Shown here: piece after piece, positions 19,877 to 26,099 of the stretch
Layout of the letters: each line of letters opens with the position of its first letter
Numbering within the stretch: position 1 is the stretch's first letter
DNA from: Burkholderiaceae bacterium
Lineage (GTDB): Bacteria; Pseudomonadota; Gammaproteobacteria; Burkholderiales; Burkholderiaceae_D
NCBI GenBank assembly: GCA_031291325.1
Contig: JARLJG010000066.1
Span: forward strand, 28,208-92,207
Length of the DNA: 64,000 nt
Direction: 5' to 3'
The notes under the pieces: model-generated
Told to the model about the DNA's origin: nothing
Database searches by the model: none
What the model saw: only the letters and a program-made list of their open reading frames with translations
Position numbers and translations under genes: made by a program

Positions 19877-21153
19877 ATGTCCAGAAGTTTACAGCAAATA
19901 CATCGCGTGAAGCGTGGCGTCAAGTACGCGATACGCTTGGCGCCGATGCCGTGATTCTGTCGAATCGAACCGTCAACGGCGTGGTTGAGATCCTGGCCCT
20001 GGCGGGCGAGGATATCGCCTCGCTGGCAACGCCCAAGCAAGAGAAAGAGACGCGCCCGGAACCGCCGATTGCCGTGGGCAATGCGCACAATCGCAGACTC
20101 GACAGCGATCAGGCGGCCAGCCTGGCCAGCGCGATGGAGGCGGCGCGGCAGGCGGCGCTGCCGGATGCGGCAAGCGCCACCGAGTTGAACGAGGTGATGT
20201 CCGAGATTCGCTCGATGCGCAGCATGCTGGAAGGGCAATTGGCCGAAATCGCCTGGGGCGGGGCGCAGCAAAAACGCAATCCGGTCATGACGCAGGCGTT
20301 GAAGGAGATGCTGGCGGCGGGTTTCAGCGCAACCCTGGCACGCTACCTGGTCGAAAAGCTTCCTGCCGGCATCAGCGCGGAAGGCGGACTAGCCTGGATC
20401 AAGACCATCCTGGCACGCAATCTGGCGACGGTGAACAATGAAAGCGAAATCCTGGAAAAGGGCGGGGTCTATGCACTGGTCGGGCCGACCGGAGTCGGCA
20501 AGACCACGACTACCGCAAAACTGGCGGCGCGCTGCGTGATGCGGCACGGCCCCGGCAAGCTGGCATTGATCACGACCGACGGCTATCGTATCGGCGGCTA
20601 CGAGCAATTGCGCATCTACGGCAAGATTTTGGGAGTGATGGTGCATTCGGTCAAGGACGAAGCCGACCTGCGCATCGCACTGGACGAACTCAAGAGCAAA
20701 CATACCGTGCTCATCGATACGGTCGGCATGAGCCAGCGCGACAAAATGGTGGCCGAACAAGTGTCGATGCTGTCCGGTTCCGGCACCAAGGTGAAGCGCC
20801 TGTTGTGTCTGGCGGCGACGTCGACCGGCGAAACGCTCAATGAAGTGGTGCGCTCGTATCAGGGCGATGGCCTGGCCGGCGTCATCATGACGAAACTGGA
20901 CGAGGCCGCGACCATCGGCAGTGCACTGGACGTTGTCATTCGACAGAAATTGAATTTATACTATGTTGCAAATGGGCAACGAGTACCGGAAGATTTGCAT
21001 GTGGCCAACCAGCAATACCTGGTCGACCGCGCATTCAAATTAAAGAGGGAAACTGCGCCTTTTCAATACAACGATGACGAATTGCCCTTGGTGGTCGCCA
21101 ATACGGCGCGTAATATGAACGATAAGAATCTGCGCGGGGTGCTTCTTGGCTAG
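19873..21153 (+). CDS. flhF: Flagellar SRP-like GTPase FlhF
   Basis: GPTGVGKTTTTAKLAARC, LITTDGYRIGGYEQL, TKLDEAATIGSALDV. Confidence 0.96.
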   Translation: MNVQKFTANTSREAWRQVRDTLGADAVILSNRTVNGVVEILALAGEDIASLATPKQEKETRPEPPIAVGNAHNRRLDSDQAASLASAMEAARQAALPDAASATELNEVMSEIRSMRSMLEGQLAEIAWGGAQQKRNPVMTQALKEMLAAGFSATLARYLVEKLPAGISAEGGLAWIKTILARNLATVNNESEILEKGGVYALVGPTGVGKTTTTAKLAARCVMRHGPGKLALITTDGYRIGGYEQLRIYGKILGVMVHSVKDEADLRIALDELKSKHTVLIDTVGMSQRDKMVAEQVSMLSGSGTKVKRLLCLAATSTGETLNEVVRSYQGDGLAGVIMTKLDEAATIGSALDVVIRQKLNLYYVANGQRVPEDLHVANQQYLVDRAFKLKRETAPFQYNDDELPLVVANTARNMNDKNLRGVLLG

Positions 21154-22000: not shown

Positions 22001-22738
22001 ATGTATACCGCAGAAGGGAAGGCCGACAAGAACCAATTGCTGGTGGAGCATGCTCCGCTGGTCAAGCGCCTTGCCCATCAATTGAAGGCCAAATTGCCAC
22101 CCAGCGTCGAAGTGGACGATTTGATCCAGGCCGGGATGATCGGCCTGCTGGACGCGGTCAGCCGCTACGAAGAGACGCACGGCGCGCAATTTGAAACCTA
22201 CGCGGTGCAGCGCATACGCGGCGCCATGCTCGACGAGTTGCGCAGCAGCGATTGGCTGCCGCGCAGCATGCGGCAAAATATGCGCAAGATCGAAACGGCG
22301 ATGAGCGCGTTACAGCAAAAGCTGGGACGCCCGCCGAACGAAAGCGAAGTGGCCAAGCAACTCAAATTGTCGCTGGCCGACTACCAGGATTTGCTGACCG
22401 ACGGCGGCGGGCACCAACTGGTGTATTACGAAGATTTCCACGATGGCGACGGCAACGGCAATGAACACTTTCTCGACCGCTATTGCGCCGACGAGGGCGA
22501 AGATCCGCTGCAAACCCTGATGAATACCGGCTTTCGGGCCGCCTTGGTCGAAGCGATCAACACCTTGCCTGAGCGAGAAAAGATTTTGATGGGCCTCTAC
22601 TACGAACAGGAAATGAACTTGAAGGAGATCGGCGCCGTGATGGGGGTCTCCGAATCGCGCGTCTGCCAGTTGCATAGCCAGGCCATCGCGCGGCTGCGTT
22701 CAACCCTCAGGGAAAAAGCGTGGACTGGGGTAGCGTAG
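22001..22738 (+). CDS. fliA: RNA polymerase sigma-28 factor FliA
   Basis: HAPLVKRLAHQLKAKLPPSVEVDDLIQAGMIGLLDAVSRYE; region 4 ESRVCQLHSQAIARLR. Confidence 0.97.
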   Translation: MYTAEGKADKNQLLVEHAPLVKRLAHQLKAKLPPSVEVDDLIQAGMIGLLDAVSRYEETHGAQFETYAVQRIRGAMLDELRSSDWLPRSMRQNMRKIETAMSALQQKLGRPPNESEVAKQLKLSLADYQDLLTDGGGHQLVYYEDFHDGDGNGNEHFLDRYCADEGEDPLQTLMNTGFRAALVEAINTLPEREKILMGLYYEQEMNLKEIGAVMGVSESRVCQLHSQAIARLRSTLREKAWTGVA

Positions 22739-23454
22739 CGGGGCTGCTCCTTGCGCTGGCCGGCATTGTTGTCGGTCAGGCCTTGGAAGGCGGCGAGTTG
22801 AGCTCGCTGATTCAACCCGCCGCTTTTATCATTGTGGTCGTCGGGACGCTGGGCGCGGTGCTCTTGCAAAGCGGGTTGTCGCTATTCCTGCGCGGCGTGC
22901 GCATGGGATTATGGGTTTTCCTGCCGCCGTCTGACCGCCTGCGCGACATCAAGCGCGATGTCGTCAGTTGGAGCGTGACAGCGCGCCGCGAAGGCTTGCT
23001 CAGCCTGGAGCGTCAGCTGGATTCCGTGCGCGACCCCTATGTTGCCAAGGGCTTGCGTCTGATCGTCGACGGCGTCGACCCGTTCAAGTTGCGCGAAATC
23101 CTGGATGTCGAAATATCCGACTTTGAAAGCCGGCAGCGCCTGGCGGTGAAAGTGTGGGAGTCGGCCGGCGGTTATTCCCCGACGGTGGGGATCTTGGGCG
23201 CCGTCCTGGGCTTGATCCATGTGATGGAAAATTTGTCCGACCCGAGCCGGCTGGGCAGCGGGATCGCAGTTGCATTCGTCGCCACCATTTACGGTGTCGG
23301 CTTGGCAAATCTGGTGTTTTTGCCGATCGGAGCCAAGCTCCGATCGATGGTGAACCGTGAAATTGTGAAACGCGAGATGATCGCCGACGTGTTTTGCGCC
23401 ATTGCGACCGGCGAGAATCCGCGCATCATCGAAGAACGCATGACGACTTATTGA
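22720..23454 (+). CDS. motC: MotA-like stator protein MotC
   Basis: MDWGSVAGLLLALAGIVVGQALEGGELSSLIQPAAFIIVVVGTLGAVLLQ; overlaps the fliA 3' end. Confidence 0.92.
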   Translation: MDWGSVAGLLLALAGIVVGQALEGGELSSLIQPAAFIIVVVGTLGAVLLQSGLSLFLRGVRMGLWVFLPPSDRLRDIKRDVVSWSVTARREGLLSLERQLDSVRDPYVAKGLRLIVDGVDPFKLREILDVEISDFESRQRLAVKVWESAGGYSPTVGILGAVLGLIHVMENLSDPSRLGSGIAVAFVATIYGVGLANLVFLPIGAKLRSMVNREIVKREMIADVFCAIATGENPRIIEERMTTY

Positions 23455-23532
23455 CCGGCAGGCGGCGGCCACGGTTTTTGGATGGTTGTTTCCGACTGAT
23501 GTCCGACATTCCGACGACAAGAGAACGCACGA

Positions 23533-25275
23533 ATGATTACACAATTGACCCTGCGAAATTTTAAGAGTGTTGGCGAACAGGTCTATGATTTTACTCAGTT
23601 CGACCTATTGGTTGGCCGAAACAACAGCGGCAAGAGCACAGTCCTGCAGTCGCTGGCAATCTGGCAATTTTGTGTGGACGAATTTCATCGATCAAAACGT
23701 AGTGGTTCCAAAGGAATCCAAGTTGTGTTACCAAATTTCACGGCATTGCCGGTTCCGGAATTCAACTTGCTTTGGAAAGACAGAACGGATCGTCACTGGC
23801 CTGTGGTCAATGGTGCCAAGAAGCAGGAATATATTCTAATTAGTATTAACGTGGTGTGGCGGCGAGAGTCCGGCGAGACTGATTCGTTTGGGGTTGAACT
23901 ACGCTATCACTCGCCGCAAACCATTTATGCCATTCCCAGCGATGGATGGGCGAAGTTTCGTGAATGTGAAAAACAGGATGACTTACCGAGAATTGCTTAT
24001 GTGCCGCCATTTTCTGGATTGGAACCTACGGAGAAGTGGTTAGATATTTCCCCGATCCGGCAGCAAGTGGGTAAAAGTCAACCTGGTAGCGTACTGCGCA
24101 ATTTGCTGTTATGGGTATGTCCTTCGCCAGTTCGTGGAAAGGATGGACGGATAAGTAAAGGATATACTCCGCCAGCTGATTGGAAAGAGTTGGCTGACAT
24201 TATTGAGCGTTGGTTTTCGGTTACGATTCACGAGCCGAAATATGAATCGGCCAAGGATGTCTACATCACCGTAGAGTACCATCACAGGGACAAGGACTAT
24301 GACATTATTTCAGCGGGGAGCGGCTTTCATCAAACATTGACCCTGCTGGCATTTTTGTATGGCTATAAGCCCACAACTATATTGTTGGATGAGCCGGACG
24401 CACACCTCCATGTAAATTTGCAACGCGAAATTCTGGATTACTTCAAGAAGAAGTCTCTTGAGCGGAACATTCAGTTTCTGATTGCTACGCACGCAGAGGA
24501 ATTCGCGCGCGGTGTCGATGCCAGCCAGATCGTGTCCTTGTTAGGCCAAGTACCAAAACGCATTCAGTCTTCCCCCGATGTACTTAGGGCAATGGCTGAC
24601 GTTTCCAACGAGGAGATTACGCGGCTAATGGCGTCGCCTTATATTCTTTACGTTGAGGGCGAGGACGACGAGCGCATTTTGCGTGCTTGGGCAGAGCAAT
24701 GCAACGCACAGGTCGCGTTGGACAAGTTTTGCTTCAAAACAATGGGTGGCGGCAACAAGAAGGATATGAAGGATAGGGCTGACGGACACTTCGGGGGATT
24801 GCAACAGATCATACCAAAAGTATCGAGATTGATACTTTTCGACTACGATGGCGACGCAGCGTGGCATCCTTCAGTTGACAACCCAGCCGTGGCCGAGTGG
24901 ACACGCAAGAATATTGAAAACTATCTGCTTGTGCCCGATGCATGGAAAAGAGCGGCGGCACGGAAATTGCTTTGTGGTGAGGACGATCTGTTTGCGGTGC
25001 AGGTTCTTCGCATGATCGATGAGTTTTTTATCGGAGAGAACTTAACTTTGCCGCCAGGGAAAACTTGGCGGAATGTAACGGCGAATGTATTCAGCGTTGT
25101 AGATGGTAAGCGGATTTTATTCTCAGGTGACAATTCATTATTCCAACAACTACAAAGTGGAAATCCGTCAGTTAAGCTTATTCGTAATGAGATCGCAATG
25201 AGCATGATTGCGGATGAAATTCATGAGGATGTGCATAAGTTCATTGGCAAGGTGATTGCGTTGGTAGGGAGTTAG
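23533..25275 (+). CDS. OLD-family ATP-dependent endonuclease-like protein (SMC/ABC-type ATPase + TOPRIM)
   Basis: Walker A VGRNNSGKST, Walker B TTILLDEPDAHLH, H-loop IATHAEEF; C-terminal TOPRIM-like ILYVEGEDDERIL and LILFDYDGD. Sequence looks more A+T-rich than flanking genes. Confidence 0.85.
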   Translation: MITQLTLRNFKSVGEQVYDFTQFDLLVGRNNSGKSTVLQSLAIWQFCVDEFHRSKRSGSKGIQVVLPNFTALPVPEFNLLWKDRTDRHWPVVNGAKKQEYILISINVVWRRESGETDSFGVELRYHSPQTIYAIPSDGWAKFRECEKQDDLPRIAYVPPFSGLEPTEKWLDISPIRQQVGKSQPGSVLRNLLLWVCPSPVRGKDGRISKGYTPPADWKELADIIERWFSVTIHEPKYESAKDVYITVEYHHRDKDYDIISAGSGFHQTLTLLAFLYGYKPTTILLDEPDAHLHVNLQREILDYFKKKSLERNIQFLIATHAEEFARGVDASQIVSLLGQVPKRIQSSPDVLRAMADVSNEEITRLMASPYILYVEGEDDERILRAWAEQCNAQVALDKFCFKTMGGGNKKDMKDRADGHFGGLQQIIPKVSRLILFDYDGDAAWHPSVDNPAVAEWTRKNIENYLLVPDAWKRAAARKLLCGEDDLFAVQVLRMIDEFFIGENLTLPPGKTWRNVTANVFSVVDGKRILFSGDNSLFQQLQSGNPSVKLIRNEIAMSMIADEIHEDVHKFIGKVIALVGS

Positions 25276-25319
25276 TAACTAACCTTTCCTAGATACAGGT
25301 ATTTCGCTGGCAGACGAAT

Positions 25320-26099
25320 ATGGCAAGAAGAAAAAGCGAAGAAGAACACGATAACCACGAACGATGGATGGTGTCGTACGCCGATTTCATCACCTTGCTG
25401 TTCGCTTTTTTCGTTGTCATGTACGCGATTTCCTCGGTCAACACCGGAAAATATCGGGTCTTGTCGGATGCTCTAGGCAGCGCTTTTGGTCGGGCGCCGG
25501 TCCTGTTGACCAACAACTCGAAAATGGGACTCGTGATCGGCGGGCAGCAGAAATCGTTCGTGAACCAGAAGCGCGAAAATGCGGTGCGGCGCGAGAAAGA
25601 GCAACTCACCGATATGGCTCGTGACATACAAAGGGCGCTCGCGCCGCTGGTCAAACAGGGCAAGGTGCATGTCACGCAGAGCAGTCGCGGCATCAATGTC
25701 GAGATCAACGCCAGCGTATTGTTTGCCACTGGCGAAGCCAAGTTGACCAACGACTCCGGGCAGGCGCTGCGTGCGGTGGCGACCGTGCTGAAAAATGACA
25801 AGCATGCGTTGCAAGTGGAAGGCTACACCGACAACGTGCCGATCGCCACGCCGTTTTTTGCGTCCAATTGGGAACTCTCGGCGGCGCGTGCCAGCGCGGT
25901 GGTCAGGCTATTGGTCGATGCCGGAATCGACGCCGGGCGATTGACTGCAGTCGGGCATGGGGCCAACGATCCGGTCGGGCCGAACGACACGCCGGAAGGA
26001 CGTTCGCGCAATCGGCGCGTCGAAGTGATGATTTTGTCCGGCGTGCCCGATGCAGCCAAGGAAGTGCCGGTCCCGGTGGATGCCGCCAAGAATCCTTGA
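25320..26099 (+). CDS. motD: MotB-like stator protein MotD
   Basis: EEHDNHERWMVSYADFITLLFAFFVVMYAISSVNTGKY; OmpA-like domain VEGYTDNVPI...RSRNRRVEVMI. Confidence 0.94.
   Translation: MARRKSEEEHDNHERWMVSYADFITLLFAFFVVMYAISSVNTGKYRVLSDALGSAFGRAPVLLTNNSKMGLVIGGQQKSFVNQKRENAVRREKEQLTDMARDIQRALAPLVKQGKVHVTQSSRGINVEINASVLFATGEAKLTNDSGQALRAVATVLKNDKHALQVEGYTDNVPIATPFFASNWELSAARASAVVRLLVDAGIDAGRLTAVGHGANDPVGPNDTPEGRSRNRRVEVMILSGVPDAAKEVPVPVDAAKNP

Follow-up and report, generated by a model that had tools for sequence, protein, structure and literature searches.

An OLD/PARIS-superfamily ATPase-TOPRIM gene acquired between the flagellar stator genes motC and motD: a candidate single-gene anti-phage effector

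In the 64,000-nucleotide stretch of contig JARLJG010000066.1 analyzed here (the window), from a Burkholderiaceae bacterium, the flagellar stator genes motC and motD, both intact, are separated by an open reading frame coding for a 580-amino-acid protein with an ABC-type ATPase half followed by a TOPRIM half. This arrangement, as well as the five motifs that a first-pass annotation had read in the protein (GRNNSGKST, LLDEPDAHLH, ATHAEE, VEGEDDERIL and FDYDGD), was found as described: the gene starts 78 bp after motC and stops 44 bp before motD, no other gene lies between the two stator genes and no helicase adjoins it (Table 1). Does such a gene belong to the stator operon, and if not, where did it come from and what might it do there? 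The explanation that we consider probable is that the gene is intact, was acquired recently and codes by itself for an anti-phage effector of the OLD/PARIS superfamily, an anti-phage role being plausible by analogy with related proteins.

Table 1. Coordinates of the gene, its motifs and its flanks in the window.
Feature	Positions	Strand	Remarks
motC (MotA-type stator), left flank	22720..23454	+	NF006583, 349 bits vs. cut-off 237
Leader from motC to the ATPase-TOPRIM gene, 78 bp	23455..23532	+	
OLD/PARIS-superfamily ABC-ATPase and TOPRIM nuclease gene (predicted), 580 aa, acquired cargo	23533..25275	+	ATG start
Walker A, GRNNSGKST	23614..23640	+	K34 and S35 invariant in 50 homologues
Walker B/D-loop, LLDEPDAHLH	24379..24408	+	D286 and E287 invariant
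Switch, ATHAEE	24484..24501	+	H320 invariant
C-terminal TOPRIM half, residues 358-580, divergent DUF4435 by sequence	24604..25275	+	E375, D437 and D439 invariant; EWxRxNIENYLL motif
TOPRIM acidic codon E375	24655-24657	+	
TOPRIM acidic codon D437	24841-24843	+	
TOPRIM acidic codon D439	24847-24849	+	
Junction from the ATPase-TOPRIM gene to motD, 44 bp	25276..25319	+	
motD (MotB-type stator), right flank	25320..26099	+	NF006541, 324.6 bits vs. cut-off 283

Foreign origin of the gene

The ATPase-TOPRIM gene is AT-rich (GC 0.475, GC3 0.51) compared with seven flagellar neighbors (GC 0.58-0.61, GC3 0.68-0.79), and its codon usage lies at a distance of 0.26 from theirs, each flagellar gene being at 0.11-0.16. 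The reference set comprised flhB, flhA, flhF, an flhG-like gene and fliA, which were named by their translations, and motC and motD, which were not. A motD search of 60 related genomes recovered 28 relatives in which motC and motD are adjacent, with gaps of 1 to about 110 bp; among these empty sites are those of two genomes of the same genus, with gaps of 75 and 33 bp. The gene was found in two of 398 genomes of the order, the second copy at a different site; among 295 genomes of the taxonomic family it is confined to its own genome, apart from a remote relative at 27% identity, and insertion at the motC-motD site was seen in one genome only. Conservation between motC and motD throughout the order, which had been set beforehand as the observation that would speak against an acquisition, was therefore not encountered. 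Since 28 motC-motD pairs are adjacent and the gene is present in so few genomes of the order, it is not an ancestral stator gene. Together with its foreign composition and codon usage, these observations bear out its horizontal acquisition into the operon: the gene is a recent import, a single foreign gene cleanly inserted.

Several vehicles for this import were considered and rejected. Insertion via a recognizable element was set aside, as there is no tRNA gene in the window and neither border repeats nor a target-site duplication were found; a search for known RNA families gave no Rfam match between positions 21000 and 28000. For carriage by plasmids the matches were all remote, reaching about 28% identity at best, and for carriage by phages there was no match in 50,697 phage records and a single close IMG/VR contig. 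The latter (L113:6001-8219; relatives are designated by L and a number), which also bears a phage tail gene, holds a truncated, ATPase-only copy of 343 aa at 61% identity; the 4 bp at its end are shared with a second AAA_21 ATPase gene.

At the upstream border, the stretch from -18 to -4 agrees in register with the leaders of copies that follow a type III methylase (CGACAAGAGAACGC in the window vs. CGACAAGAGGACGC in L013 and L015, that of L006 being similar), with a shuffle p of at most 0.005, uncorrected for about 78 comparisons. This in-register match, a modest signal, suggests that a few tens of bp upstream probably arrived together with the gene. Downstream, the 44-bp junction showed no UvrD remnant and no resemblance to same-genus intergenic DNA, and no border common to the relatives or to such intergenic DNA was found. 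The gene is probably co-transcribed with motC and motD, given their common orientation, their short spacing and the lack of a detected terminator before motD. Promoter and terminator candidates alike were at chance level, which neither proves nor excludes the earlier suggestion that motD depends on readthrough. The leader of motD has no GGGGTGA-type ribosome site, such as precedes motD in a same-genus genome (L082), and the translation of motD may have changed after the insertion.

The ATPase and TOPRIM halves

The N-terminal half is an ABC/SMC-type ATPase with Walker A, Walker B and a His switch, and passes the Pfam cut-offs of both AAA_15 (72.5 bits, cut-off 32.1) and AAA_21 (65.6 bits, cut-off 27). 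The best named relatives of the protein in PADLOC are NsnB, AriA and AriAB, followed by PtuA, GajA and Old; the AriAB profile covers residues 282-469 (E 1.6e-17). The full-length predicted structure (pLDDT 85.7) is nearest to the folds of Septu/retron PtuA and then GajA. The fold matches, here and below, are distant (TM about 0.5). An alignment of 50 members of the homologous family, drawn from many phyla, shows that K34/S35, D286/E287 and H320 are invariant, as are E375, D379, D437 and D439 in the second half, where most residues of a C-terminal EWxRxNIENYLL motif are invariant too.

The TOPRIM half, modeled alone (pLDDT 93.8), best matches the TOPRIM domains of class 2 OLD proteins, i.e., XccOLD (6njw, E 3.7e-5) and BpOLD (6nk8, E 3.1e-4), the matches to these two spanning E 3.7e-5 to 6.1e-4; next comes the PARIS complex (8ux9_A, E 7.6e-3), through AriB. 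At the sequence level, DUF4435 is matched by seven of the 50 family members (E up to 0.01), with L062 (30.4 bits) as the sole member above the Pfam cut-off of 27 bits, the threshold also used in PMC9122126. The window protein itself has no match to DUF4435 or any other Pfam TOPRIM family, and a TOPRIM-only sequence profile searched against the PDB recovered neither an OLD nor an AriB chain. The nuclease assignment hence relies on the fold match and on the invariant Glu and DxD residues (E375, D437 and D439), which sequence searches do not recover by themselves.

By sequence, then, the TOPRIM half reads as a divergent DUF4435 domain. The DUF4435 matches in the family, the OLD-like fold and the PADLOC ranking point to a predicted OLD-superfamily nuclease situated between class 1 OLD proteins and the fused AriAB of PARIS. 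The OLD-family identity given in the first-pass annotation holds for the ATPase-TOPRIM architecture of the superfamily, and has to be amended for the TOPRIM half, which by sequence belongs with DUF4435 (AriB of PARIS) although its fold is nearest to class 2 OLD.

Relatives, their neighborhoods and the likely role

One scan of GTDB representatives returned 77 loci at 49-86% identity, the handful above 78% being short partial matches. Full-length homologues, at 49-81% identity, are spread over at least ten phyla, among them Pseudomonadota, Thermodesulfobacteriota, Verrucomicrobiota, Acidobacteriota, Bacteroidota, Cyanobacteriota, Nitrospirota, Spirochaetota, Kiritimatiellota and Myxococcota. Because most of these genomes are metagenome-assembled, mis-binning could make single host assignments wrong, and is unlikely to account for the whole spread. 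In the family tree the phyla are thoroughly intermixed, a pattern that horizontal spread would produce. A clade of 38 (support 99/98) takes in the window copy, at no fixed place, together with almost every copy found in a type III methylase/UvrD operon. Solo copies are common and scattered, and make up whole deep clades. The nearest relative, L141 (81% identity), shows a low dN (0.117) with saturated dS, which indicates purifying selection. Homologues mostly of full length at 49-78% identity, with one at 81%, and the low dN put this reading frame far beyond a chance occurrence.

The neighborhoods of 72 relatives with upstream sequence were compared. Restriction-modification or Wadjet genes adjoin 31 of them, mostly in operons where the family gene stands between a type III methylase and UvrD. 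In 22 of the 72 the gene just upstream is a type III methyltransferase (some 850-1000 aa when complete; MTase_III in PADLOC with E = 0 for L013) or its decayed 3′ end, and in about ten of these 22 a UvrD/GajB-like helicase comes next, usually within a few bases. L141 likewise seems, on reading its sequence, to lie directly after the same type III methylase and before a remnant of the UvrD start. Elsewhere the gene is preceded by type I HsdM-HsdS (L029), a type IIG enzyme (L027, L040 and L056) or Wadjet JetC (L033, L063 and L074), and in L017 JetD is the next gene after it. No restriction partner was detected for the other 41 of the 72, several of which sit, as in the window, among housekeeping genes (moeA, metF, a selD-like fusion, a sugar transporter or a 2-oxoacid-dehydrogenase E2), so that the defense association is not universal. 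Most often, members of the family are found inserted between tandem genes and in the same orientation. As a whole, the family has the marks of a tight, often restriction-associated effector that is mobile across phyla.

Some of these loci merit a description of their own. L033 has the order DUF3375 gene (of the JetA family), JetC, family gene, an AAA_21 ATPase and DUF4276 pair, and JetD; the pair (L033:7852-9735) forms a second module right after the family gene, and two separate ATPase effectors are nested in one Wadjet operon. The UvrD-like partner was repeatedly lost: L013:7749-9620, compared with L004, L009, L023, L030, L072 and L141, forms a decay series in which the first few to about 45 helicase codons persist straight after the ATPase-TOPRIM stop. 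Upstream of the type III methylase, L013:3-2495 codes for a protein of at least 831 aa with homologues in about 12 loci and no Pfam or PADLOC match at the thresholds used; its 29% match to the downstream protein of L052, which matches ResIII, makes it probably a divergent Res subunit. RhuM-family genes or fragments lie beside the family gene in L006, L007, L019, L023, L056 and L063, that of L056 being fused to Fic.

A mechanism can be outlined from the two halves and the company kept by the family, in which we infer the trigger, the substrate, the abortive outcome and the co-transcription. The N-terminal ABC ATPase would sense a phage-induced change, e.g., inhibited restriction or DNA-repair enzymes, and then license the C-terminal two-metal TOPRIM nuclease, which would cut host tRNA or DNA and abort the infection. 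Besides DNA, host tRNA has to be taken seriously as a target, because AriB cuts tRNA by a two-metal mechanism (PMC12409363) and cleavage of a host tRNA is reported for P2 Old (cited in PMC13261556). The family gene travels by itself or is added to restriction-modification and Wadjet operons, where it most frequently has a type III methylase before it and a UvrD-like helicase after it; the window copy is a solo version that came to lie between motC and motD. A sharper form of this explanation, which can be put forward tentatively, makes the protein a back-up of the PARIS or PrrC kind that senses phage anti-restriction proteins and hence travels with restriction-modification and Wadjet operons. 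The positions after type III methylases (some of them remnants), HsdM-HsdS, type IIG enzymes and JetC, with JetD downstream in L033 and L017, suit a back-up against anti-restriction, a role already suggested for the PARIS-like and OLD-ABC/TOPRIM modules that BREX operons contain (PMC12839542, PMC11341690). Ocr is the trigger of PARIS, for which no restriction system has to be present in the cell (PMC9122126), and the solo window copy would still respond because the ATPase itself would be the sensor; however, a Salmonella PARIS in BREX was unresponsive to Ocr (PMC11341690), and the 41 of 72 copies with no such partner detected speak against this sharper form. A further generalization, which we find rather doubtful, would have a promiscuous one-gene guard module insert in many unrelated systems (type I, IIG, III and, between JetC and JetD, Wadjet) at the boundary where the final modification or loader gene gives way to the gene after it, carry a common anti-restriction sensor, cause cell death once the host system is blocked, and persist alone as well, as at motC-motD.

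Two other explanations deny the window copy this independence or give it another purpose. It could be a stranded Gabija-like effector, a remnant with no function or a partial one, that needed a UvrD partner and lost it: helicases follow about ten close relatives, L004, L009, L023 and L030 (and, by sequence reading, L141) keep only the first helicase codons, and the genome of the window has no UvrD or type III methylase homologue that we could find elsewhere (best helicase match E 5.7e-4 over 75 residues). Yet all active-site residues are kept, dN to the nearest relative is low and solo copies abound, which makes such a remnant decidedly unlikely; the window copy is solo, intact and probably autonomous. 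Recruitment to the stator operon, coupling motility and phage defense, e.g., against flagellotropic phages, is in our opinion very improbable. The shared strand, the tight spacing, the missing terminator and the altered motD leader would agree with it, but only one genome has the gene at this site, the nearest relatives lie in unrelated operons, and co-oriented insertion between tandem genes is what the family does most often. No motility role is needed to explain the gene, and nothing points to a role in the motor.

The preferred reading of an acquired effector also has a wider bearing. The flagellar stator operon, a housekeeping operon, has served as a landing site for a defense-type gene, and the family offers matched sets in which the same protein, at roughly 60-80% identity, occurs alone or in type III, type I, type IIG and Wadjet operons; it is therefore testable whether an OLD/PARIS-type nuclease acts alone or as a restriction back-up. 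One tight family common to these four kinds of operons and to lone sites was not found described in the literature searched, the coverage of which is incomplete, and no priority is claimed.

Comparison with known defense systems

Among systems built on an ATPase and a nuclease, retrons (class 3 OLD) are ruled out for the window gene: motC and motD flank it, with no reverse transcriptase as a neighbor and no Rfam non-coding RNA. The partner of PtuA is either the HNH nuclease PtuB or a retron. The Septu/retron PtuA proteins provide the best full-length fold matches, driven by the ATPase half, whereas the TOPRIM half has no PtuA match and neither PtuB nor a retron adjoins the gene. PrrC and RloC similarly join an ABC ATPase to a nuclease, and PrrC is described as tied to a type I restriction enzyme, its activator being an anti-restriction factor of the phage (PMC2610378); the analogy is one of setting only, and no homology of the nuclease half is claimed.

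Gabija (GajA-GajB, class 2 OLD) shares the ATPase and the TOPRIM fold, and many relatives of the window gene are followed by a UvrD/GajB-like helicase, adjacent in about ten. A classical Gabija is nevertheless ruled out for the window copy, which has no GajB in the window or detected in its genome; the relatives, unlike Gabija, carry a type III methylase, and the GajA match is faint (E 0.01).

Class 1 OLD proteins (P2 Old, T. scotoductus OLD and E. coli YbjD) resemble the window copy in being encoded by a single gene, ATPase then TOPRIM, with no adjoining defense genes. They are rare and poorly understood (PMC10568477, PMC13261556), and the match to TsOLD (6p74) is very weak (E 1e-4 over the first 41 residues). 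The single-gene class 1 label proposed by the first-pass annotation suits this copy; it does not extend to the family, as many close relatives lie in multi-gene restriction operons, with a type III methylase before and UvrD after them. A related Sulfolobales OLD protein has a cell-cycle role and apparently none in defense (PMC12796447), which weighs against the anti-phage reading.

The fused AriAB of PARIS (class 4 OLD) likewise combines an AAA_15/AAA_21-type ATPase with a DUF4435-type TOPRIM in one chain. Such fusions exist (PMC9122126, PMC10568477), and whether they are separate from class 1 OLD has been called unclear (PMC10568477). The window protein passes the ATPase thresholds of PARIS, but gives no DUF4435 match (threshold 27 bits), its TOPRIM fold is nearer to class 2 OLD than to AriB, and AriA is only distantly related by sequence (8ux9_B, E 2e-4). 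PARIS also occurs embedded in another defense operon, i.e., BREX (PMC11341690), as do OLD-ABC/TOPRIM modules (PMC12839542), and related modules are known from ABC-ATPase-anchored restriction-like systems (PMC12839542). The window gene is a new member of a known superfamily, related modules of which have already been described within BREX operons, and its product is probably a new member of a known defense family rather than a new kind of system.
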